Virus record (IMG/VR): IMGVR_UViG_3300044960_000664
Span: 1 to 25,201 of that record
DNA: 25,201 nt
Reading direction: 5' to 3' (one strand)
Source of the DNA: a virus
Made by a program: the position numbers and the translations under genes. The notes below the pieces were generated by a model. The model saw only the letters and a program-made list of their open reading frames with translations. It was not told where the DNA came from and did no database searches. Below, one piece after another: positions 2,980 to 25,200 of this stretch. Within the stretch, counting starts at the first letter, position 1, and each line of letters opens with the position of its first letter.

Positions 2980-4263
2980 CTATGTTCGCAGGGTTTCGAT
3001 CACATCATGATCGGCGCCGCGCACGGCTGCGATGGCCGCGAAGGTCCGGTCCTCGTCCGCCAGCACGGCAGCCTCGCCCGTGGCCTCCTGCCAGCGCTGC
3101 ACCGCGACGTCGCAGTAGCCGGGATCGATGTCCATCGCGAAGCAGGTTCGCCCGATCGTCTCGGCGGCGATGATGGTGCTGCCGCTGCCACAGAACGGCT
3201 CGTACACCGCGTCCCCAGGCCGGCTGTTGTTCAGCATCGGCCGGCGCATGCACTCGACCGGCTTCTGCGTGCCGTGCACGGTGGCGAGATCCTCGGCGCC
3301 ATTGCCGATCGACCACAGCGTGGTCTGGTCGCGCGCGCCCTGCCAGTGCCCGGTCGCGCCCTTGCGCACCGCGTAGAGGCAAGGCTCATGCTGCCAGTGG
3401 TAGTCGCCGCGACCCAGCACCAGCCGCGGCTTGGCCCAGACGATCTGGCTGCGCACCGCGAAGCCGGCCGCCTCGAGGCTCTCGATGACGGTGCGCGCGT
3501 GCACCCCCGCGTGCCACACATACGCGACGTCACCGGGGAACAGCGCCCAGGCCTCGCGCCAGTCGGCCCGGTGGTCGTTGGCGACACGGCCGGTGCGCAG
3601 CGTCGCCGAGACGCCCGCCTCGTTGCGCCAGGACGGGTTGTAGTCCACCCCGTAGGGCGGGTCCGTGACCATCAGATGCGGCTGCACGCCAGCCAGCAGG
3701 CGGTCGACGTCGGCGGGATTGGTGGCGTCGCCGCAGAGCAGGCGATGCCGCCCGAGCAACCAGAGATCGCCGGGCCGTGTCACCGGAGTGGCCGGCGGCT
3801 CCGGCGCTGGCGCATCGAGATCGTCCTGCGCGAAGTCGCCCGCAGCCTCCGCCGCGGCGAGCAGGCGGTCGAGCTCCATGCCGGAGAAGCCGAGCACGTC
3901 GAGATCGACCACCGCCTCGTCGCGGATGCGCGCGATCTCGGCGGCGAGCAGGCTCTCGTCCCAGCCGGAGTTGAGCGCGATCTGGTTGTCGGCGAGGCGG
4001 AGTGCGCGCGCCTGTGCGGGCGAGAGATGCCCCAGCCGCAGCGCCGGCACGGTGGTGAGGCCAAGCTGCTGCGCCGCCATCACCCGGCCATGGCCGGCGA
4101 TCAGCACGCCCTCGGCATCGACCAGCACCGGATTGACGAAGCCGAACTCGGCGATCGAGGCCGCGATCTGCGCCACCTGCTGGGCCGAATGCGTGCGCGC
4201 GTTCTCCGCGTAGGGCAGCACCCGGTCGAGCGGGATCGTCTCGATCCGCAGATCAGGCCGCAT
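2980..4263 (-). CDS. ParB-like nuclease domain / DNA methyltransferase fusion (DPPY type)
   Basis: The 427-aa protein joins a ParB N-terminal domain (residues 5-90, with NARTHS at 21-26 and GHGR at 57-60) to a beta-class DNA methyltransferase. The methyltransferase has the catalytic DPPY at 201-204 and the AdoMet-binding FCGSG at 357-361, in the catalytic-first order of the beta class. DPPY is typical of N6-adenine methylation, so adenine is the likely target base; the recognition sequence cannot be read. A VTRPGDLWLLG linker joins the domains. The start at 4263 overlaps the end of the upstream paralogue by 11 bases and has GAGG upstream. No matching restriction gene is seen, so it is probably a solitary phage methyltransferase protecting the DNA or tuning expression. 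The last 20 residues match those of the 60-aa protein at 2183-2365. Confidence 0.92.
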   Translation of the reverse strand: MRPDLRIETIPLDRVLPYAENARTHSAQQVAQIAASIAEFGFVNPVLVDAEGVLIAGHGRVMAAQQLGLTTVPALRLGHLSPAQARALRLADNQIALNSGWDESLLAAEIARIRDEAVVDLDVLGFSGMELDRLLAAAEAAGDFAQDDLDAPAPEPPATPVTRPGDLWLLGRHRLLCGDATNPADVDRLLAGVQPHLMVTDPPYGVDYNPSWRNEAGVSATLRTGRVANDHRADWREAWALFPGDVAYVWHAGVHARTVIESLEAAGFAVRSQIVWAKPRLVLGRGDYHWQHEPCLYAVRKGATGHWQGARDQTTLWSIGNGAEDLATVHGTQKPVECMRRPMLNNSRPGDAVYEPFCGSGSTIIAAETIGRTCFAMDIDPGYCDVAVQRWQEATGEAAVLADEDRTFAAIAAVRGADHDVIETLRT

Positions 4264-5710
4264 CGGCCAGAGCCTCGGCGCGCTCCGCCGCCACCGCGTC
4301 GTAGCCGCGGCCATCGCCGGCGAGCATGACCGGCAGGTCGGGATGCAGCATGCGCCAGCGCGCGATCGCGAGATCGACGTACTGCGGCGCGAGCTCGATC
4401 GCCCGCACGCGGCGCCCTGTCCGCTGCCCCGCGAGGAGCGTCGTGCCCGAGCCGGAGAACGGCTCGAACACCACGTCGCCCTCATCGGTGTACGCACGCA
4501 TCAGGAACTCCGGCAGCGCCACCGGGAACACTGCCGGGTGCTCGGTCTCGATCCCGCGTGCCTTGTGCCGGGTGATGCGCAGCACGCTGTCGGGGATGCG
4601 CATCTCCTGCACCGGCAGGCCGGCATGCGTGTAGGGCTTCACTGTGCCATCGGCATCGCGCAGGCCGCTGCCCTTGTTCGGCGTGCCGGCCCACTTGCAG
4701 GGCACGATCTTGTTCGCCTGCCGCGCCGTGCGGTTGAGGTGGAACACCAGCTCGAAGGCCGGTGCGAGCCGGCCGTTCCAGTCGCCCGGCAGGCCCGGCC
4801 CCTGGTCCCACGCATAAAGCGCGAAACGGCGCCAGCCCTGCGCGCGCATCCACTCGAGCCACCCGCGCCAGTACGGCACCCACTCGCCGTCGCGGTGGAT
4901 CAGGCCCAGGTTCACCATCACCTGGGCGTCCTCGGCCATGGCGGTTGGCAGGTGGCGGAACACGCCCTGCATGAGCGCGTCCCAGTCCGAGACGCCCCCG
5001 GTGGTGTAGTCGCGCTGGCTGCCATAGGGCGGCGAGGTGAACAGCAGCGCGGCACGCTCGTCGGCCATCACGCGCGCCACGTTCGCAGCGTCCGTGCTGT
5101 CGCCGCACAGCAGCCGGTGCTCGCCGAGCAGCCAGAGATCGCCCGGCCGCGTCACGGCCTGCCGCGGCGCCTCCGGCTCGGCGTCCGCCGGGTCAGGCTC
5201 GGTGTCGTCCGCGGCATGCGCGGCGCTGGCCGTGTTCCCGGACGCGCCGTCGGGCTGCTCCTCCGCCGGCGCGGCTTCCACCGCCGCGTCCGCCGCCGCG
5301 AGGATGTCGTCGAGCTCCGCGGCCGAGAAGCCGAGCGCCGCAGCGTCGATCTCCGCCGCCTGCACCGCGGCCAGCGCATCGCGCAGCAGCGCCTGGTCCC
5401 AGGTCGCGTTCTCGGCGATGCGGTTGTCGGCGAGCCGCAGCGCCTCCTTCTGCGCCGCCGAGAGATGCTTGAGCACGATCACCGGCACCCGCTCGATGCC
5501 GAGTGCGACCGCCGCCTCGAGGCGGCCGTGCCCCGCGATCAGCACGCCCTGCTCGTCGACCAGCAGCGGGTTGGTGAAGCCGAAGGCCAGCATGCTGGCC
5601 TTGATCTGCTCGATCTGCGCCGCGCTGTGCACCCGTGCATTGCCGGGATGCGCACGCAGCTCCGCCACCGGGCGCAGCACGATCTTCGCTGCCATCCAGG
5701 GGAGCTGCAT
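4253..5710 (-). CDS. ParB-like nuclease domain / DNA methyltransferase fusion (SPPY type)
   Basis: The 485-aa protein has the same plan as its downstream neighbour: a ParB N-terminal domain with NARVHS and GHGR (60-63), an alanine- and acid-rich linker (about 140-185), the shared VTRPGDLWLLG block, then a beta-class methyltransferase. The catalytic motif is SPPY (226-229) and the AdoMet motif is FSGSG (418-422). SPPY is more typical of N4-cytosine enzymes, so this protein may modify a different base. The start is uncertain. I chose the ATG at 5710, which has GGATGG upstream; 5695 and 5719 are alternatives. The gene lies just downstream of the iteron-like and palindromic region at 5735-5876 and is translationally coupled to the next gene. 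Confidence 0.9.
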   Translation of the reverse strand: MQLPWMAAKIVLRPVAELRAHPGNARVHSAAQIEQIKASMLAFGFTNPLLVDEQGVLIAGHGRLEAAVALGIERVPVIVLKHLSAAQKEALRLADNRIAENATWDQALLRDALAAVQAAEIDAAALGFSAAELDDILAAADAAVEAAPAEEQPDGASGNTASAAHAADDTEPDPADAEPEAPRQAVTRPGDLWLLGEHRLLCGDSTDAANVARVMADERAALLFTSPPYGSQRDYTTGGVSDWDALMQGVFRHLPTAMAEDAQVMVNLGLIHRDGEWVPYWRGWLEWMRAQGWRRFALYAWDQGPGLPGDWNGRLAPAFELVFHLNRTARQANKIVPCKWAGTPNKGSGLRDADGTVKPYTHAGLPVQEMRIPDSVLRITRHKARGIETEHPAVFPVALPEFLMRAYTDEGDVVFEPFSGSGTTLLAGQRTGRRVRAIELAPQYVDLAIARWRMLHPDLPVMLAGDGRGYDAVAAERAEALADAA

Positions 5711-5734
5711 CGGCACCATCCAGGCTGTAGGGAG

Positions 5735-5876
5735 TGCGAACCAGGTGCGAAACGGGTCCCATCGCGGCAAGCCGCGATGGGGTCCCGCCATGGCGGCCGC
5801 GGGTGCGAACCATGCGGCCTATGGTTCGCAGCCAACCGATTGAGATCACGCGGGAAAAGTGCGAACTGCGAACCAT
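5735..5876. repeat. Iteron-like cluster of TGCGAA(C) repeats
   Basis: TGCGAA occurs at 5735, 5745, 5804, 5860 and 5867 in direct orientation and at 5825-5830 inverted. Copies at 5804-5813 and 5821-5830 form a perfect 10-bp inverted repeat of TGCGAACCAT with a 7-base loop, and the full TGCGAACCAT recurs at 5867-5876. Such clustering in a non-coding gap suggests binding sites for a replication initiator or a regulator of the methyltransferase operon. Confidence 0.55.
5758..5781. repeat. Near-perfect palindrome, copy 2 of the repeated stem
   Basis: Arms of 11 bases (5758-5768 and 5771-5781) pair perfectly around a 2-base loop. The inner arms ATCGCGGC and GCCGCGAT are identical to those at 164-181. 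It lies 48 bases upstream of the ATG at 5710, between two TGCGAA repeats. Confidence 0.6.
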
Positions 5877-6741: not shown

Positions 6742-6949
6742 GACGGCCTCCGCGCGCGCCCCAGCGCTTCGTCGCCTCGTTGACCAGCGCCTGGCGCAGC
6801 CAGGGATCCGTGACGTCGTCGATCGCGAGCGAGACCACGCCCTGCTCGCGCCAAACGCGGCGACGCAGCGCGTCGAGGTCCGCCGACGTGGTGGGGCTCG
6901 TCGCGCGATGCAGGCAGGAGCGCGGCGGCATCGGAGAGCCGGGGAGCAT
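6731..6949 (-). CDS. Hypothetical 72-aa protein
   Basis: The protein opens MLPGSPMPPRSCLHRAT and contains a helical core (LDALRRRVWREQGVVSLAID, then DPWLRQALVNEATKRWGARG). Its ATG overlaps the stop of the RuvC-like gene by one base (TGATG), and its own end overlaps the next gene by 11 bases. Translational coupling on both sides supports it as a real gene. The core pattern, in which a tryptophan-arginine helix is followed by DVTDPWLRQALV, is seen in small phage replication-block proteins of alphaproteobacteria, but I know of no assigned function. Confidence 0.7.
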   Translation of the reverse strand: MLPGSPMPPRSCLHRATSPTTSADLDALRRRVWREQGVVSLAIDDVTDPWLRQALVNEATKRWGARGGRHGA

Positions 6950-7494
6950 CAGGCGTGCCCTCCCTGGCCCTCGGTGGCCCAGAGCAGCAGCGCGATCGCG
7001 TCCGCCTCATTGTCGTCGGCAGGAGCGAAACCGCGTGCGCGGATCGCTGCGATCATCGCTGCCTTGTCGGCGTTTCCCTTGCCGGTGGCGAAGCGCTTGA
7101 TCGTGCCGACCGGGACGCCCTCGTAGGGCACGCCACGCTGCTCGCACCACGCGGTGAGGAGGCCCAGGAAACCGCCATAGATGTGTCCGGCGTCGGTTCC
7201 CGCATGGGCTCGCACTTCCTCGAACACGACGCGCTGCAAGCCGTGGGCGAGCCAGGCCATCTCGCCGAGCCAGTGGTGGAAGCGCAGGTAGCGCATGCCC
7301 CCGCCCTCGAACCGGCTCGGCTTGAAGGTCATGCTGCCGGAGGTGATGCCGCCGTCGCGGGAGCGCAGCGCCCAGCCGGTGGTGGTGCCGAGGTCGAGGG
7401 CGAGCACGGCGCGGTGTGCGAGTGCCAGCGGCAGCGGGATCGGAGCGCCGCCGCTTGCGTCGGGCGCGGGCGGAGTCAGAGTCGCGAGAGCCAT
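6949..7494 (-). CDS. RuvC-like Holliday junction resolvase
   Basis: The 181-aa protein has the RNase H-like fold of phage RuvC-type resolvases, which cut four-way DNA junctions made during recombination and replication. The first strand carries the catalytic Asp in LALDLGTTTGWAL (D34). A second acidic site lies in VVFEEVRAH (E92/E93), and the C-terminal acidic cluster is DDNEADA (D161, E163, D165). The K-rich stretch TIKRFATGKGNADKAAM before it is typical of the family. The ATG at 7494 has GGAG about 7 bases upstream. It follows the primase gene across the inverted-repeat gap and is coupled to the next gene. It would resolve junctions left by the Sak4-type recombinase. Confidence 0.85.
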   Translation of the reverse strand: MALATLTPPAPDASGGAPIPLPLALAHRAVLALDLGTTTGWALRSRDGGITSGSMTFKPSRFEGGGMRYLRFHHWLGEMAWLAHGLQRVVFEEVRAHAGTDAGHIYGGFLGLLTAWCEQRGVPYEGVPVGTIKRFATGKGNADKAAMIAAIRARGFAPADDNEADAIALLLWATEGQGGHA

Positions 7495-7623
7495 GATGGT
7501 CTCCGAGAGGGGATCGTGGTGGTGAGGGCGGCGACGGCGCGGTTCTTGGCGGAGCTCGCCGTCGCTGCCCGGCTACGGGCGGAGGGGCGGCGACGGGGGG
7601 CCGGTGGGCCATGTCGTCGTTCT

Positions 7624-7720
7624 GGTGACGCAACTGACACAGGCTCCGGAAATACCCGTTCGCGCGCGCGCGCGTGCGCGCGTGACGGTGATTACGAAGG
7701 ACTGTGTCAGTTGCGTCACC
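7624..7720. repeat. Perfect 19-bp inverted repeat around an alternating CG tract
   Basis: The arm ggtgacgcaactgacacag (7624-7642) is exactly complementary to 7702-7720, with 59 bases between. The interior holds a run of about 25 alternating purine-pyrimidine bases (mostly CG and TG, about 7661-7685), which is able to adopt Z-DNA. It lies between the primase-helicase and resolvase genes. A small open frame across it (7573-7755) is probably not a gene. Candidate roles are a replication origin, a terminator or a protein-binding site. Confidence 0.8.
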
Positions 7721-7768
7721 GTAAGGAGGCACCGTGCCCGGTACGTGTTGCTCATGGCTGCCTGCCGC

Positions 7769-10132
7769 TCAGAACTGCATGGGGTCTGAAGGGGCGATCG
7801 GTGCTCGGACGCGCAAGCCTCGGAAGGCCCGCGCTGCCTTTTCCCGGTCGCGCTCGAAGTTCCGGTTCAGCAGGCTGTCCGAGAACCGCCGTACCGATCC
7901 GACGTATTCGCCGTTGGCCTCGGCCCAGGCCTTCCAGCTTGCGAACAGCGTCGCCGTAGTCTCGACGTGGCTCGCGACACGCTCGCAGCACTCCTCGATC
8001 CAGCGCCCAAGCGCATCCTCGGCCTCGAAGTACTCGTCGGTCGCGGCGAGGACGGTGGCCGGCGGCTTCAGCCCGCCGCGCTGCCACTCGAGGCAGCCCT
8101 GCAACGCCCAGGCGAGGATGCCGTCACGCTCGGCGAGCAGCCGCTCGGGCAGGCGCTTGTCGCGCTGGGCCGGCGGGATGGTGACGGTGAACGGCACCAT
8201 GTGCAGCCGCCGCCGCATCGCTTCGTCGACGTTGCGGATCGACGGCTTGTGGTTGCCCGCGACCAGCAGCTTGAACTGGGGGACGAACTCGAAGAAGTCC
8301 TGGCGCATGAACCGGGCGGTGATGCGGTCGCCGCCGGTGAGCGCCTTCAGCTTGCTCTCCGCCCAGCGGCTGCCCTGCTCGGTCTCGATCGAGGTGACGA
8401 TGCGCGCACCACGCAGCCCGGCCATGTCGGTCGGATGGCGCTCACCGTGGGTCGCCATGAACATGTCCATCGGCGCGACGGTGGCGTAGTCGCCGACGAT
8501 CGCGGTGATGGTGTTCAGGAACACCGACTTGCCGTTGGCGCCGGTGCCGTAGAGGAAGAACAGCGCGTGCTCGGTGGTGACGCCGGTCAGGCTGTAGCCG
8601 ACGACGCGGCGCAGGTAGGCCTGGAGATCCGCGTCTCCGCCCGTGACCTGGGCGAGGAAGGTGAGCCAGGCCGGGCACGCGCCCTGGGGCGCTGCCGTGG
8701 TGAGCTTGGTCATGTGGAGAGCACGGTCGTGCGGGCCGAGCGTGCCGCTGCGCAGATCGACCACCCCGGCCGGCGTGTTCAGCAGCCAGGGGTCGCGATC
8801 CCACACCTCGGCGGTGGTGGCGTGGCGGCGATCGGCGCGCGCGAGCCGCTCCACCGCGGCGACGGTCGAGGCTTGCGAGAGCCTGGTGCGGACCTTGGCG
8901 TTGTTGGCGCGATTGGCGGCGGCACGGCAGACGCCCCGGGCGAGATCGAAGGCGCGCAGCGTGCCCTCGCGCTCCCACCGCACCCCCGTCCAGGTGAGCC
9001 AGGCGCCCCAGACCGCGACGTGGCGCCAGTCGTCACCATGGAGCTCGCTGAACTCGGCCGCCAGCGCATCCTCGGTGAAGCCGACCGGCAGGACGTGATC
9101 GTCCCCGGCCTGCGGCCTGGGATCGTCCCCGCCGCCTTCGGTGTGATTGGCTGCGTCGCGCTGCCAGAGCCGCTCCGCCTCCTGGCGCAGCCGATCCTCG
9201 GGCCAGGGCGGATCGATGCGCGCTGCGTTGTAGTCGCGGATCTCCTGCCATGCCTGGGCGGGTGTGGCGTGCCCTTCGCGGCAACGCCGGATCCAGTAGC
9301 CGATGATGCGCGACAGCGCCTCGAACCGCGTCACGCCGTCGGCGCCGCCCTCACGCACGCGCTGACCGAACAGCTCGGTGACGTCGCCGCGCGGCGGGCC
9401 CGCACCATTGAAGTCGAAGGGATGGGCGGCCGTGTCCGTCGCGACCTCGCTGCCGATCCCCGGCAGCGGCGGCATCGCCATCACGGCTTCGGCGAACTCG
9501 GTCAGGTCATGATCGCGCGGACGCGAGTCGAGGATGGTGACCGGCCGGGTGGCACCCCCTTTCGCGTATACCGAACCCGCCACACGGATCGGCTGATGCG
9601 CGGAGCGGAACGCCGGATCGCCGCCGACCTTCACCGCGATCGCGTGACGGAGCCGGCACAGCGTCACCAGGTCATCGCCGCTCGCCGGCTCGGTCAGCCG
9701 CCAATAGAGGTGCCGCTTGGCCTGGCCGTCTTCGGTCACCCCGCCAGAGGCGACCTCGAGCGTCGGCGCGCCGAGATGCCGCACCAGGTGCGCGCGCTTG
9801 GCGGCGATGTCGCCGTGGTCGAGGTCGACCAGCACCACCTGCATCTGGGCGACGTCTTCGGCACTCGCCTGGCCCGGTCCGCCGACCGTGCCGGGGATGA
9901 CGTAGAGCGCCATCCCGGCCTCGGCGGCCCAGCGCGCCTGCACCGTGAGCTTCGCCGCCAGATCGGCATCGGCCGGCAGGAAGGGTGTGTGCGGCGGCCG
10001 GTCCGGCCCGCCTTTCTCCCCCAGCGCACGGACCGCCACCCAGCCCTCGCACCAGCCGAACACGACCTCGGCATAGGTCGCGATCATCTCCGCATTGGGC
10101 GCGGCGGTGTGCTCGCTCGCCGATGCGCTCAC
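7769..10132 (-). CDS. Phage primase-helicase (AEP-like primase plus D5/SF3 helicase)
   Basis: The 787-aa protein starts at a GTG (10132) that overlaps the stop of the nuclease gene by four bases, with GAGG upstream; an ATG at 10087 is possible but has no spaced ribosome binding site. The N-terminal half resembles archaeo-eukaryotic primases such as RepB-like domains: a catalytic DLD pair (D103, D105 in LVDLDHGD) and a histidine in KRHLYWRL (about 141). The C-terminal half is an SF3 helicase of the P4/D5 type. It has Walker A GTGANGKS (529-536), an acidic Walker B-like strand (RIVTSIETEQG, 577-587), a sensor segment LLVAGNHKPSIRN (622-634) and an arginine-rich finger region (RRRLHMVPF). It would open the duplex and prime phage DNA replication. 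The central linker (330-350) is acidic and glycine-rich. Confidence 0.9.
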   Translation of the reverse strand: MSASASEHTAAPNAEMIATYAEVVFGWCEGWVAVRALGEKGGPDRPPHTPFLPADADLAAKLTVQARWAAEAGMALYVIPGTVGGPGQASAEDVAQMQVVLVDLDHGDIAAKRAHLVRHLGAPTLEVASGGVTEDGQAKRHLYWRLTEPASGDDLVTLCRLRHAIAVKVGGDPAFRSAHQPIRVAGSVYAKGGATRPVTILDSRPRDHDLTEFAEAVMAMPPLPGIGSEVATDTAAHPFDFNGAGPPRGDVTELFGQRVREGGADGVTRFEALSRIIGYWIRRCREGHATPAQAWQEIRDYNAARIDPPWPEDRLRQEAERLWQRDAANHTEGGGDDPRPQAGDDHVLPVGFTEDALAAEFSELHGDDWRHVAVWGAWLTWTGVRWEREGTLRAFDLARGVCRAAANRANNAKVRTRLSQASTVAAVERLARADRRHATTAEVWDRDPWLLNTPAGVVDLRSGTLGPHDRALHMTKLTTAAPQGACPAWLTFLAQVTGGDADLQAYLRRVVGYSLTGVTTEHALFFLYGTGANGKSVFLNTITAIVGDYATVAPMDMFMATHGERHPTDMAGLRGARIVTSIETEQGSRWAESKLKALTGGDRITARFMRQDFFEFVPQFKLLVAGNHKPSIRNVDEAMRRRLHMVPFTVTIPPAQRDKRLPERLLAERDGILAWALQGCLEWQRGGLKPPATVLAATDEYFEAEDALGRWIEECCERVASHVETTATLFASWKAWAEANGEYVGSVRRFSDSLLNRNFERDREKAARAFRGLRVRAPIAPSDPMQF

Positions 10133-19035: not shown

Positions 19036-19538
19036 CGAAACGATCGACGACCCGGGTGCCGGCGGCTGAAGCGCAGGGACCGACGTTCCCCGCCATCCCG
19101 CCCACGCAGGTGCTGCCGCGGCTCGCTGCGCTTCAGACGGCATCCACGCCGGTGCTGAAGCAGCAATGGCGCGAGCTGTTCGGCAAGGAGCCGCCGGCCT
19201 TCAACCGCGCCTACCTGCAGAGCCGGCTCGCCTACCGCATCCAGGAACTGGCCTATGGCGGCCTCAAGCCCGAGACGCGCGCGCGCCTCGAGGCGCTCGG
19301 TGAGCAACTCGACGGCGGCAACGTGGTGCTGCGGCGGATCAGGGCCGACAGCCGCCCGCTGCCTGGCACGCGGCTCGTGCGGGAGTACGGCGGGGTGCAG
19401 CACGTCGTGACCGTGCGGCCTGACGACTTCGAGTACGAGGGCCGCCGCTACGCCTCGCTCTCCGCGATCGCACGCCACATCACCGGCACGCGGTGGAATG
19501 GCTGGTCCTTCTTCGGACTGAAGGGCAGGTCGTCGTGA
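19032..19538 (+). CDS. DUF2924 domain protein
   Basis: The 168-aa protein shows the DUF2924 pattern: LKQQWRELFGKEPPAFNRAY, then LQSRLAYRIQELAYGGLKPE, then the block PGTRLVREYGGVQHVVTVRP, and an ending with GRRYASLSAIARHITGTRWN followed by GWSFFGL. The family occurs directly ahead of serine recombinases in alphaproteobacterial prophages and islands and is thought to help recombination or DNA binding, without direct proof known to me. The ATG at 19032 has GGAGG 5 bases upstream. Its stop overlaps the recombinase start by four bases (GTGA), so the two are made together. Confidence 0.9.
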   Translation: MTKRSTTRVPAAEAQGPTFPAIPPTQVLPRLAALQTASTPVLKQQWRELFGKEPPAFNRAYLQSRLAYRIQELAYGGLKPETRARLEALGEQLDGGNVVLRRIRADSRPLPGTRLVREYGGVQHVVTVRPDDFEYEGRRYASLSAIARHITGTRWNGWSFFGLKGRSS

Positions 19539-20869
19539 GCCGCCGCACGCTCCCCGACCTGCCGATGTCGGTTACCCGCAAGCGCTGCGCGGTCTACACC
19601 CGCAAGAGCACGGACGAGGGTCTGGAGAAGGAGTTCAACACCCTCGATGCGCAGCGCGAGGCCTGCGAGGCCTACATCGCCAGCCAGCGCGCCGAGGGCT
19701 GGACCCTGGTGCCCGACCGCTACGACGACGGCGGGTTCTCCGGCGGCTCGCTCGACCGTCCCGCGTTGAAGCGCCTGCTCGCCGACATCGAGCGCGGCCT
19801 CGTGGACGTGGTGGTGGTCTACAAGATCGACCGGCTCTCGCGCTCGCTGATGGACTTCGCCAGGCTGGTCGAGGTGTTCGACGCCCACGAGGTCACCTTC
19901 GTCTCGGTGACGCAGTCGTTCAACACGACGACCAGCATGGGGCGTCTGACGCTGAACATCCTGCTCAGCTTCGCCCAGTTCGAGCGCGAGGTGATCGGCG
20001 AACGCATCCGGGACAAGGTCGCGGCCTCGAAGGCGAGGGGCATGTGGATGGGCGGCAAGGTGCCGCTCGGCTACGACGTGCGCGATCGGAAGCTGGTGGT
20101 GAACACGGCCGAGGCTGCCCGGGTGCGGCGTGTGTTCGAACTCTTCGCCGAGACCGGCTCGGGCATCGAGACCGTGCGCCGGTGCCGCGCCGAGGGGATC
20201 ACCACCAGGAGCGGCCGCCCGATCGACAAGGGCGACCTCTACAAGATCCTGCACCTGCGCACCTACGTCGGCGAGATCGCGCATCGCGGCAACGTCTATC
20301 TCGGCGAGCACGCGGCGATTGTCTCGCGCGCGCTCTGGGATCGCGTGCACGCGCTCCTGCAGGTGAGTCCGCGCACCCGGGCGCAGGCGAACCGGCCGCA
20401 GAGCCCGGCGCTGCTGAAGGGGCTGATCTTCGGCACCGACGGCCGCGCGCTCTCGCCGACGCACAGCCGGAAGAACGGCCGGCTCTACCGCTACTACGTC
20501 GCCCAGCGCGCCCTGAAGGGCGAGGCGGATGACGCCATCGTCCGGCGCGTCTCGGCCGGGGAGATCGAGGCGGCGGTGATGACGCAGTTGCGCGCCCTGT
20601 TGCGCCAGCCGGAGGTGGTGGTCGGGACGTGGATCGCGGCGCAGGCCGAGGATCCCGACGTGACAGAAGCCGACGTGCGCGAGGCGCTCGCGCGGCTCGA
20701 GCCGCTGTGGGACAAGCTGTTCCCCGCCGAGCAGCAGCGCATCGTCCGCTCCCTGGTCGAGCGCGTCACGGTCGGACTGGACGGCGCGGAGATCCGGCTT
20801 CGGATCGAGGGGCTGGCCAGCCTGGTGCGCGAGCTCGGGCTGGTCGGTGCCGAGAGGGCGGCTGCGTGA
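19535..20869 (+). CDS. Large serine recombinase (integrase/resolvase family)
   Basis: The 444-aa protein has the resolvase catalytic domain at about 17-165: the nucleophile Ser25 in VYTRKST, then a DGGFSGGSLDRPALKRLL block, IDRLSRS (98-104) and FAQFERE (146-152). A recombinase domain follows (about 175-290) with the usual WMGGKVPLGYDV start. The third part, GLIFGTDGRALSPTHSRKNG then RLYRYYV, is a zinc-ribbon-like region that lacks the usual cysteines, as in other recombinases of this subgroup. A helical end (about 375-430) would be the coiled coil. It would integrate and excise the element between attachment sites. The GTG at 19535 overlaps the DUF2924 stop; an ATG at 19565 is an alternative. 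No attachment core could be identified. Confidence 0.93.
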   Translation: MSRRTLPDLPMSVTRKRCAVYTRKSTDEGLEKEFNTLDAQREACEAYIASQRAEGWTLVPDRYDDGGFSGGSLDRPALKRLLADIERGLVDVVVVYKIDRLSRSLMDFARLVEVFDAHEVTFVSVTQSFNTTTSMGRLTLNILLSFAQFEREVIGERIRDKVAASKARGMWMGGKVPLGYDVRDRKLVVNTAEAARVRRVFELFAETGSGIETVRRCRAEGITTRSGRPIDKGDLYKILHLRTYVGEIAHRGNVYLGEHAAIVSRALWDRVHALLQVSPRTRAQANRPQSPALLKGLIFGTDGRALSPTHSRKNGRLYRYYVAQRALKGEADDAIVRRVSAGEIEAAVMTQLRALLRQPEVVVGTWIAAQAEDPDVTEADVREALARLEPLWDKLFPAEQQRIVRSLVERVTVGLDGAEIRLRIEGLASLVRELGLVGAERAAA

Positions 20870-22733: not shown

Positions 22734-22997
22734 ATGAAGAAGAGCAGGTTCAGCGAGGCCCAGATGATTGGGGTGCTGCGGGAGCAGGAGGCTGGTGCGG
22801 CGACGGAGGATGTCTGTCGCCGGCACGGCATCAGCCAGCAGACGTTCTACCGTTGGAAATCGAAGTACGGGGGCATGGAGGTATCGGACGCGCAGAAGCT
22901 GAAGGCGCTGGAGGACGAGAACCGGCGTCTGAAGAAGCTGCTGGCGGAATCGATGCTGGATGTCTCGGCGTTGAAGGACCTGCTGGGAAAAAACTGA
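22734..22997 (+). CDS. IS3-family transposase OrfA
   Basis: The 87-aa protein opens [20 protein letters not shown] and contains the HTH ([20 protein letters not shown]), followed by a leucine-zipper stretch ([20 protein letters not shown]). This is the DNA-binding part of IS407-group transposases. GGAG lies 6-8 bases before the ATG. The gene ends just after the slippery heptamer AAAAAAC (22988-22994). A -1 slip there joins it to OrfB to make the active transposase, as in other IS3 elements. On its own OrfA normally acts as a regulator of transposition. Confidence 0.93.
22988..22994 (+). promoter_or_regulatory. Slippery heptamer for -1 frameshifting
   Basis: AAAAAAC is in the phase A AAA AAC relative to orfA, directly before its TGA. 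A -1 slip continues as [12 protein letters not shown] in the orfB frame, giving the OrfAB fusion. Confidence 0.85.
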
Positions 22998-23908
22998 GGA
23001 CGCCCGCGGCACGCCGGGCTGCGGCGCTGCGCCTGATGGCGGAGCGCGGGTATTCGCAGCGGCGTGCCTGCGGGCTGCTCGAGGTTGACCCCAAGACGGT
23101 GCGGCGGGAGCCGGTGCCGGGCGATGGCGAACTGCGTGCTCGGCTGCGCGAACTCGCGGCCGAGCGTCGGCGGTTCGGCTATCGGCGGCTGGGTATTCTG
23201 CTGCGGCGCGAGGGCGTGGCGATGAACAAGAAGAAGCTCTACCGGATCTACCGTGAAGAGGGTCTGTCGGTTCGTCGCCGCCGTGGCCGCAAGCGGGCGA
23301 CGGGCACCCGCGCGCCGTTGGCCTTGGCGCAGGGACCGAACCAGCGCTGGTCGCTGGACTTTGTTTCCGATGCGCTGAGCTGGGGCCGTCGCATCCGCAT
23401 TCTGTGCATCGTCGACGACTTCACACGCGAGGGCCTGGCGCTGGTGGTGGACACCTCGATCAGCGGGCGACGCCTGGTGCGCGAGTTGGAAGCGCTGATC
23501 GTCCATCGTGGGCGCCCCGCGGTGATCGTCAGCGACAACGGCACGGAGATGACCTGCCGCGCTGTGCTCGAATGGTGCAACCGCAACGGCGTGGCGTGGC
23601 ACTACATCCCGCCCGGCAAGCCGCAGCAGAACGGGTTCGTGGAATCCTTCAACGGCAAGCTGCGGGACGAGTGCCTGAACGAGGAGGTCTTTGCCAACCT
23701 GGCCGAGGCCCGAACTGTCATCGAACGCTGGCGGCTGGACTACAACCTGAACCGGCCACACTCGGCGCATGGCGGGCTGACCCCGGATGCCGCACGCCGC
23801 CGCCACGCGGAAGCGGCCGGGCGGCTGCGCTACCTCTACGGCTCCGCCGCCCGGCCGCTCCAGCCAGCACAGATTTTCGGCTACAACCCCGGCGGGCTCT
23901 CACAATGA
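22994..23908 (+). CDS. IS3-family transposase OrfB (made as an OrfAB fusion)
   Basis: The frame of about 304 residues carries the rve/DDE integrase core: D in [11 protein letters not shown] in [12 protein letters not shown] and E in [17 protein letters not shown]. An N-terminal HTH_21-like part precedes it (RYGYRRL-type block read here as [16 protein letters not shown]). It has no good start of its own, which fits synthesis by frameshifting from orfA; the first internal ATG is at 23036. The frame is intact to its stop, 6 bases before the IS5-family element begins, so the protein could still be functional even though the right end of the IS is not visible. Confidence 0.92.
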
Positions 23909-23914
23909 ACGCGG

Positions 23915-25200
23915 GGACGCCTCGAAAAACCGCTGGTGTCGGCGCGGGCTGAGGTGATTCGCTGACGTCCTGGGCGATGGAGGCGGCGATGGCGGGTCAG
24001 GCGGGTTTGTTCGACGCGGATGAGCGGCTTCACGCTCTGTCAGCGGCGGGCGATCCGCTGGAGCGTCTGCGCGCGGTGGTGGAGTTCGAGGCGTTCCGCG
24101 CGGAACTGGAGGCGGCTTTGCCACGGGCGGACCGCAGCCGTGGCGGCCGGCCGCCCTACGACGCGGTACTGATGTTCCGCATCCTGGTGCTTCAGGCGCT
24201 GTACACGCTCTCGGACGAGCAGACCGAGTACCAGTTGCGCGACCGGCTGAGCTTCATGCGTTTCGCAGGCCTGGCGCTGCACGATCCGGTGCCGGACGCG
24301 AAGACGATCTGGCTGTATCGCGAGCATCTGACGCGCGCGGGGGCGCTGTCGCGGCTGTTCGCGCGGTTCGACGCGGTGCTGGCCGAGCGTGGTTTCCTCG
24401 CGATGGGCGGGCAGATCGTCGACGCCACGGTGGTCGAGGCCCGGCGGCCGCGTCTGACGAAGGACGAGAAGGCGACGCTGCGCGCGGGCGGCACGCCCGA
24501 GGGCTGGTCCAAGGCGCGGGAACGGCAGATCGATCGCGATGGCCGCTGGACCATCAGGCGCGGCCGCAAGCCGCCGCCGACGGCGGGGGCCGAGCGCCGC
24601 GCTGGCGAGATCGCGGTGCCGGTGTTCGGCTACAAGAACCACCTCGGCATCGATCGTGCGCACGGCTTCATCCGCCGCTTCGTGGTGACGCATGCGGCGC
24701 GGCACGATGGCAGCCAGCTCGGCGCGGTGCTGGATCCGGGGAACACCGGCAGCGGCGTCTGGGCGGATACCGCCTATCGCAGCAAGGCCAACCTCGATGC
24801 GCTCGAGCGCCGCGGGCTCAGGCCGGAGTTCCAGCGCGCCAAGCCGCGCGGTCGGCCGATGCCCACGCACATCGCGCGAGGCAACGCGACCCGCGCCCGG
24901 GTGCGCAGCCTCGTCGAGCACGTCTTCGCCACCGAGAAGCGCCGCATGGGTCTGGTCGTGCGCAGCATTGGCCTGGTCCGCGCAACCGCGCGCATCACGC
25001 TCGCCAACCTCGCCTACAACATGCGCCGCCTGGTCTGGATCGAGGGGAGAGCCGCGCCCGCTTGATCGGGCCTCGCCTCAGAAACGCCGCGTAGCCCCTG
25101 CCGAAGAGCCCCGCAGAGGCTCAAAGCCGGCACTCCCGCCCGCGCGGCCGCCCTCAACGGGCCTCAGCAGCATCCAGACTGCCGGTTATTCGAGGTGTCC
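23915..25200 (+). mobile_element. IS5-family insertion sequence
   Basis: The left end ggacgcctcgaaaaaccg (23915-23932) matches the complement of 25183-25200 at 16 of 18 positions. These terminal inverted repeats enclose one transposase gene, with a total length of 1286 bp, normal for the family. The right end falls one base before the window edge, so a target-site duplication cannot be checked. Confidence 0.87.
23989..25065 (+). CDS. IS5-family transposase
   Basis: The 358-aa protein opens MAGQAGLFDADERLHALSAA and carries the N-terminal IS5 domain (PPYDAVLMFRILVLQALYTL, then LSDEQTEYQLRDRLSFMRF). The DDE catalytic residues are D145 in GQIVDATVVEA, D260 in VWADTAYRS and E310 in LVEHVFATEKRRMG. 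The end is helical and basic. The start at 23989 has GGAGG 7 bases upstream; an ATG at 23977 lacks one. The gene is full length and the element has both inverted repeats, so it is probably able to transpose. The region 25066-25200 holds only the IS end. Confidence 0.93.
   Translation: MAGQAGLFDADERLHALSAAGDPLERLRAVVEFEAFRAELEAALPRADRSRGGRPPYDAVLMFRILVLQALYTLSDEQTEYQLRDRLSFMRFAGLALHDPVPDAKTIWLYREHLTRAGALSRLFARFDAVLAERGFLAMGGQIVDATVVEARRPRLTKDEKATLRAGGTPEGWSKARERQIDRDGRWTIRRGRKPPPTAGAERRAGEIAVPVFGYKNHLGIDRAHGFIRRFVVTHAARHDGSQLGAVLDPGNTGSGVWADTAYRSKANLDALERRGLRPEFQRAKPRGRPMPTHIARGNATRARVRSLVEHVFATEKRRMGLVVRSIGLVRATARITLANLAYNMRRLVWIEGRAAPA

Follow-up and report, generated by a model that had tools for sequence, protein, structure and literature searches.

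A 93-bp dyad-symmetric site just past the stop codon of a primase-helicase gene most likely corresponds to the replication origin of the phage that carries it (we put the probability at roughly 0.83), and would be read by the phage's own SF3 primase-helicase. It lies in a 25,201-nucleotide stretch of viral DNA, hereafter the window (positions 1 to 25,201 of the IMG/VR record IMGVR_UViG_3300044960_000664). A preliminary description had proposed that the site was bound by a dimeric protein, formed a cruciform or was the replication origin. The origin and protein-site part of this proposal gained support, as the short direct repeats (iterons) of the site co-vary with the recognition helix of the primase-helicase, whereas a cruciform may represent an added function, although neither pairing nor covariation extends past position 17 of the unit.

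The site contains a perfect 19-bp inverted repeat, whose arms are 59 bases apart, as initially described, and read GGTGACGCAACTGACACAG on the + strand in one arm and on the - strand in the other (Table 1). No other perfect inverted repeat of the window with a span ≤300 is as long. In 100 sequences simulated from the window with a first-order Markov model, inverted repeats did not exceed 15 bp, in agreement with the early claim that such a match is far above chance. When up to 3 mismatches were allowed, the arm motif was still found in the window at this site only. The long alternating tract noticed between the arms is indeed the longest alternating purine-pyrimidine run of the window (24 bp). 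Each 19-bp arm is composed of two 9-bp direct repeats, here TGACGCAAC and TGACACAG, and the whole site consists of four iterons facing inward, with their outer ends 93 bp apart. Because of this arm structure, it is more natural to treat the 93-bp stretch as the unit, ordered as iteron pair, AT-rich/CCGT flank, alternating core, flank and inverted iteron pair. Its location between the primase-helicase and resolvase genes was also correctly described: on the - strand, the primase-helicase (stop at 7769) is followed by the site and by a RuvC-like resolvase (start at 7494). Approximately 50 bp separate the primase stop from the beginning of the site, and likewise in relatives.

The primase-helicase has 764 amino acids when counted from position 10063, with an open frame that continues to 10465. 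Replication proteins of pRN1-type origins have an archaeo-eukaryotic (prim-pol) primase domain; here, the N-terminal part has no Pfam primase domain, and the corresponding PHROG label is DNA primase / DNA polymerase-primase. The AlphaFold2 model of its C-terminal region displays a helix-helix-helix-strand-wing-strand succession (pLDDT about 70-90), corresponding to the winged-helix region listed in Table 1. More than 1000 named phage records contain a relative of the helicase region of this protein. Elsewhere in the window, two adjacent - strand frames (2980-4497 and 4253-5791) look by eye like a ParB-like domain linked with a DNA methyltransferase, a serine recombinase/integrase occupies positions 19493-20869 (+), and transposase-like frames are found towards the right end (22734-23908 and 23977-25065, both +).

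Table 1. Positions of the putative origin, its parts and neighbouring genes in the window, and of related features in other loci (L numbers denote loci).
Feature	Coordinates	Strand	Remarks
Whole dyad-symmetric unit, putative origin	7626..7718	.	93 bp; the window's sole paired-iteron scan match
Arm nearest the primase stop	7702..7720	-	Iterons TGACGCAAC = 7710-7718 and TGACACAG(T) = 7701-7709
Other arm	7624..7642	+	Iterons TGACGCAAC = 7626-7634 and TGACACAGG = 7635-7643
Alternating purine-pyrimidine core, mostly CG, potential Z-DNA	7661..7684	.	24 bp
Inner flank, primase side: TAAT (AT-rich) and CCGT	7685..7694	-	CGT invariant in 54/54 93-bp sites
Mirror inner flank: ACGG and TATTT (AT-rich)	7650..7659	-	
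SF3 (D5-type) primase-helicase, proposed initiator	7769..10063	-	D5_N 9e-31; DUF5906 7e-11; phrog_6088 DNA primase 1e-152
C-terminal winged-helix region, putative origin-binding domain	7802..8014	-	About residues 684-754 of the primase-helicase; AlphaFold2
Codon of primase residue 725 (Arg here)	7889..7891	-	Start of predicted recognition helix; co-varies with iteron position 6 (C here)
RuvC-like Holliday junction resolvase	6949..7494	-	phrog_159 1e-30; downstream of the site
Resolvase-winged helix fusions in relatives	L040:3455-4309; L050:7162-8046; L059:3593-4444; L063:3017-3868; L064:4035-4889; L067:7174-8028		
pRN1 origin as inverted 9-bp iteron pairs	L160 5084-5183		
pRN2 origin as inverted 9-bp iteron pairs	L161 61-157		
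pHEN7 origin as inverted 9-bp iteron pairs	L162 ~4688-4783		

The exact arm was also present in other viral contigs, paired at equal spacing in five of them. A search with the primase yielded 80 viral and 51 genome loci, with hosts mostly belonging to the Acetobacteraceae, Rhodobacteraceae and other Alphaproteobacteria but also to the Burkholderiales and relatives. The initial reading had been made dependent on finding the repeat at the equivalent place in relatives, and it was present in most of the close ones. Most relatives found through the primase carried an inverted repeat just past the primase stop, with differing arm sequences (TGACAGATC TGACAG, TGACGCAGA TGACGC, TGGCGGATG TGGCGG, TGCCGGATG TGCCGG, TGACGGATG TGACGG, and others). 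Both the position and the architecture of the site were kept in prophages of Alpha- and Betaproteobacteria and in viral contigs. Of 66 unique sites, 54 had an outer span of exactly 93 bp. A Rhodobacter prophage with a primase 46% identical showed three CCTAACCGA iterons per arm at the equivalent place. All four iterons of a site change together; the tandem iterons within an arm had the same base at position 3 in 66/66 sites and at position 6 in 64/66. The site stays with the primase whether the downstream gene is RuvC-like, RusA-like or other.

Inverted 9-bp iteron pairs, with other iteron sequences, were likewise found downstream of the SF3 primase in Acidithiobacillus phage AcaML1, Bordetella phage BPP-1, Arthrobacter phage Peas and the mycobacteriophages Milly and Angelica, and in 0 of 20 matched shuffles for each of these phages. 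The scan covered 16 named SF3 primases, and no such site was found beside 11 of them, mostly more distant. There was one paired-iteron site per record, at the primase, in the window, in BPP-1 and Peas, and in the 50 kb scanned of both AcaML1 and Milly. Over the window, the phage records scanned and the longer prophage loci, a period of 9 gave 30 clusters, against 8, 10, 2 and 0 for the control periods 7, 8, 10 and 11, respectively. The GC-skew switch that had been suggested as a check was uninformative, with skew extremes away from the site in BPP-1, AcaML1, Peas, Milly and the window.

Several relatives exhibited variants of the site. In an Acetobacteraceae clade with GSIKRFSQTL-type primase ends (L020, L023-L028, L036, L091-L095, L098, L099, L101 and L118), the arms are degenerate and the alternating core persists. 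Two loci (L049 and L108) carry, within the first 190 bp past the primase stop, a duplication of ~43 bp inside the site, with an outer span of 136 instead of 93 bp, and constitute a natural spacing variant. In Angelica (L141, 4404-4641), CAGCACAGA/TAGCACAGA iterons are more densely arrayed, in both orientations, between the primase and a RusA-like resolvase gene, seemingly as an enlarged form of the same origin.

The central part of the site is also conserved. The alternating run had a median length of 22.5 bp in the 66 unique sites versus 6.4 bp in shuffles, at a nearly constant offset. Between close pairs of sites (which are not independent of one another), transitions represented 0.86 of the changes in the core versus 0.45 in the adjoining flanks, and alternation is preserved because core changes are mostly transitions. 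A core was also present in AcaML1, Peas and the Rhodobacter prophage, and a shorter one in BPP-1, and the AT-rich blocks and CCGT/ACGG motifs are placed symmetrically beside it. The core is the least explained part of the site; it could hypothetically adopt the Z-DNA form and serve as a torsional buffer or opening aid.

Co-variation points to what reads the site. Using 56 full primases, we compared iteron distance with the distance of each 40-residue primase segment, with the remainder of the protein controlled for. Segment 721-760 stood out (partial r 0.57), with 0.24 for the overlapping segment and values between -0.32 and 0.22 for all others; the C-terminal winged helix is the only segment of the primase that tracks the iteron sequence. 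Resolvase segments tracked the iterons weakly, with a best partial r of 0.32 for the first 40 residues, which lie closest to the site. A site tied to the resolvase was rejected on the basis of this weak tracking and of its occurrence beside RusA-type and other genes. Two relatives (L012 and L013) have primases 94-95% identical overall to that of the window but differ from it in both the C-terminus and the iterons, which are L016-like in the two cases.

At the level of individual positions, residue 725 of the primase and position 6 of the iteron formed the top pair among 440 x 15 combinations, with a rule observed in 71/71 cases: Arg with C (21/21) and Lys with G (50/50). On a helicase tree, built leaving out the last 75 residues, each of these two positions changed ~10 times, although only five independent pairs were on well-supported branches; the tree of the winged-helix region itself retained only 2 well-supported independent pairs. 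A holdout set assembled afterwards comprised 65 new combinations, of which 61 followed the rule (45 of 49 when counted by distinct domain). The R-C/K-G rule is therefore strong but not absolute, with 4 exceptions among the 65 holdout sites. In the AlphaFold2 model, the recognition helix of the C-terminal domain starts at residue 725, and residues 738-741, the ones that track iteron position 3, are located at the wing. Linkage contributes to such a correlation, because the gene segment for the winged helix lies next to the site and the two are exchanged as one cassette. However, the same rule was found in domains from Alpha- and Betaproteobacteria that differ widely in sequence, which counts against linkage alone. 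These comparisons strongly suggest that the winged helix of the primase-helicase binds the iterons.

Six relatives encode RuvC-like resolvases whose N-terminal part is another copy of the primase winged helix (Table 1). Fold prediction was good for this winged helix (pLDDT about 70-90, residues 31-110) and poor for the rest of the protein, and the contact residues of the L040 fusion match those of the primase (KRFS...GFEKF). This suggests that, in fusion-bearing relatives, the resolvase may be aimed at the origin.

These features can be accommodated in a mechanism of initiation. The C-terminal winged helix of the primase-helicase would bind the 9-bp iterons directly, the two tandem iterons of one arm seating subunits in one orientation and the far inverted pair seating others in the opposite orientation. 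Two helicase rings could then assemble face to face as a double hexamer, at a distance fixed by the 93-bp unit. The alternating core between the rings, possibly in the Z-DNA form, would absorb or concentrate superhelical strain, the short AT-rich blocks on its sides would melt, and the rings would unwind the DNA while the primase domain starts synthesis both ways.

Among the closest known counterparts is the origin of the archaeal plasmid pRN1, a 100-bp unit located 54 bp after orf904 that comprises a 21-bp stem and a 58-nt loop and is required for replication (PMC4234260; PMC3869888). As in pRN1, the inverted-repeat unit of ~100 bp found here lies immediately 3' of a primase/SF3-helicase/winged-helix gene, with similar dimensions (stem/loop of 21/58 in pRN1 and 19/59 here, outer iteron spans of 94 and 93 bp), and the replication protein has an SF3 helicase and a predicted C-terminal winged helix. 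In contrast with the AT-rich loop of pRN1, the site described here has a conserved alternating purine-pyrimidine core. The pRN1 origin was stated to be without iteron structure (PMC4234260) and was published as a stem-loop, whereas the arms here are 9-bp iterons with a co-varying recognition helix. Nevertheless, the pRN1 arm (TGTCCATAG TGTCCA) can be read as 9-bp repeats (shuffle p 0.001), and those of pRN2 (GGACCGATA GGACAG, p 0.03) and pHEN7 (TGTCACCAC TGTCAC, p 0.0004) also fit 9-bp iterons, arranged in inverted pairs over spans close to that seen here; in pDL10 and pSSVx we found no clear 9-bp iterons. Every 3-bp deletion tested in the pRN1 loop abolished transformants, whereas substitutions were tolerated (PMC4234260; PMC3869888), as would be expected under a fixed-spacing rule. 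A similar stem-loop was reported in Bordetella phage BIP-1, and primase-SF3-winged-helix proteins were proposed to assemble at such structures (PMC4234260); our iteron scan independently recovered the BPP-1 site, counterpart of the published BIP-1/BPP-1 stem-loop. The replication protein of pRN1 showed no specific origin binding in vitro (PMC4234260), which counts against the origin reading here.

Several short direct repeats at a single locus next to the initiator gene are also characteristic of origins of the SaPI kind. SaPI Rep is reported to bind, via its C-terminal domain and presumably as two hexamers, an iteron origin placed immediately 3' of the rep gene, and the SCCmec Cch2/putative ori pair shows the same arrangement of iterons and initiator helicase gene (PMC7581432). 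The helicases and iterons of SaPI and SCCmec are different from those studied here, and we found no inverted-pair geometry of a fixed 93 bp described for them (PMC7581432).

Satellite phage P4 uses separate ori and crr sites, unlike the one site per record found here. Also unlike the P4 alpha protein, the primase-helicase of the window had no Toprim match in Pfam. In sequence-profile and fold comparisons, its helicase matched ASFV C962R (8iqi), poxvirus D5/E5 and 7ola ('DNA primase'), and we know of no origin organised as here for any of them. The tail of C962R is reported to resemble the origin-binding domain of P4 (PMC10516667). P4 alpha has a Toprim-type primase (PMC4234260) and, as cited in PMC4234260 and PMC10516667, is a primase-helicase with a C-terminal winged-helix domain that binds repeats at the origin; such a C-terminal domain is putatively shared by the protein studied here.

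The alternative that fares best, and which is compatible with an origin, is a cruciform or hairpin, alone or added to iteron binding, in which the arms pair within a strand, so that either 59 nt are exposed as a loop where priming could occur or a four-way junction is formed on which the neighbouring RuvC-like resolvase could act. Folding of the strand is favourable (z -7.8), the arm pairs co-vary position by position, including linker position 9 (0.91 paired versus 0.40 in the shuffle), and the resolvase sometimes carries the primase's winged helix. Moreover, in pRN1 a one-sided, stem-breaking change was lethal and a symmetric change restored replication (PMC4234260; PMC3869888). However, pairing and covariation end at position 17, the inner flanks pairing no better than chance; the tandem iterons within an arm change in concert, which hairpin pairing does not require; and mismatched arms exist (e.g., in L021). 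We consequently regard a role for such a structure as possible but rather unlikely. An extended cruciform over the whole unit was rejected, as no covariation was seen between the inner flanks.

Winged-helix proteins are often regulators, and the site might be only an operator where the primase-helicase or the fused resolvase binds the iterons and controls the resolvase operon by looping or roadblock, with replication starting elsewhere. The site does lie between two co-directional genes, and co-variation indicates who binds, not for which purpose. Even so, this is improbable: we found no sigma-70-like promoter at the site, which keeps its place by the primase although the downstream gene varies, and the equivalent pRN1 region is needed in cis for replication even when relocated on the plasmid (PMC4234260). 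A multi-site operator or phage-wide regulon was discarded in view of the single occurrence of the arm motif in the window and of one iteron-pair site per record.

An RNA element in the primase-resolvase transcript, such as a terminator or a processing or stability hairpin, is very improbable. A 19-bp stem could form in RNA, and the sole overlapping Rfam match was a hairpin, MIR4371 (window 7615-7731, +; E 5e-6), but its 35.7 bits fall below the gathering score of 110 and we rejected it as a long-hairpin artefact. Against such an element, no T run or intrinsic terminator (G+C-rich stem, short loop, T run) was detected at 7400-7900, mismatches in the arms are not biased towards wobble pairs (A-C 18 and G-T 13 of 42), and the iteron sequence tracks a DNA-binding domain. 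Least credible of all is that the site encodes the 5' end of the resolvase gene, the repeats being a repetitive peptide (VTQLTQ...VTRARARART): although 9 bp equal three codons and many relatives have an open frame through the site into the resolvase, the three codon positions diverge to the same degree (0.142, 0.126 and 0.134), a lack of signal that bears out the early doubt about the small frame across the site, the frame of the window stops at 7573, before the resolvase, and the architecture recurs amid quite different surroundings (AcaML1, BPP-1, Peas).

As far as the literature consulted shows, the origin proposed here is of a known kind (pRN1/SaPI/P4-like), with the fixed-spacing iteron dyad, the recognition residues and the alternating core as new details. 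More tentatively, and at somewhat less than even odds, these sites might together form an origin class that is widespread among primase-SF3-helicase replicons, ranging from plasmids of Sulfolobus to phages of actinobacteria and proteobacteria. Its defining feature would be inverted 9-bp iteron pairs, commonly spanning ~93 bp. In many of the phages, a Z-DNA-prone core would replace a plain AT-rich module for absorbing torsion or opening the DNA, and specificity would stem from a few winged-helix residues that change with the iterons. The 'stem-loop' origin of pRN1 and its intolerance to 3-bp loop deletions would be explained as a fixed-spacing iteron dyad. Replication origins are unannotated in most phages, and the site pattern would offer a simple rule to find them beside a very common gene. 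The more than 100 distinct initiator-origin pairs, with their stepwise change of DNA specificity, would make up a natural data set, and the conserved alternating core may provide a clean test for a role of Z-DNA in replication initiation.
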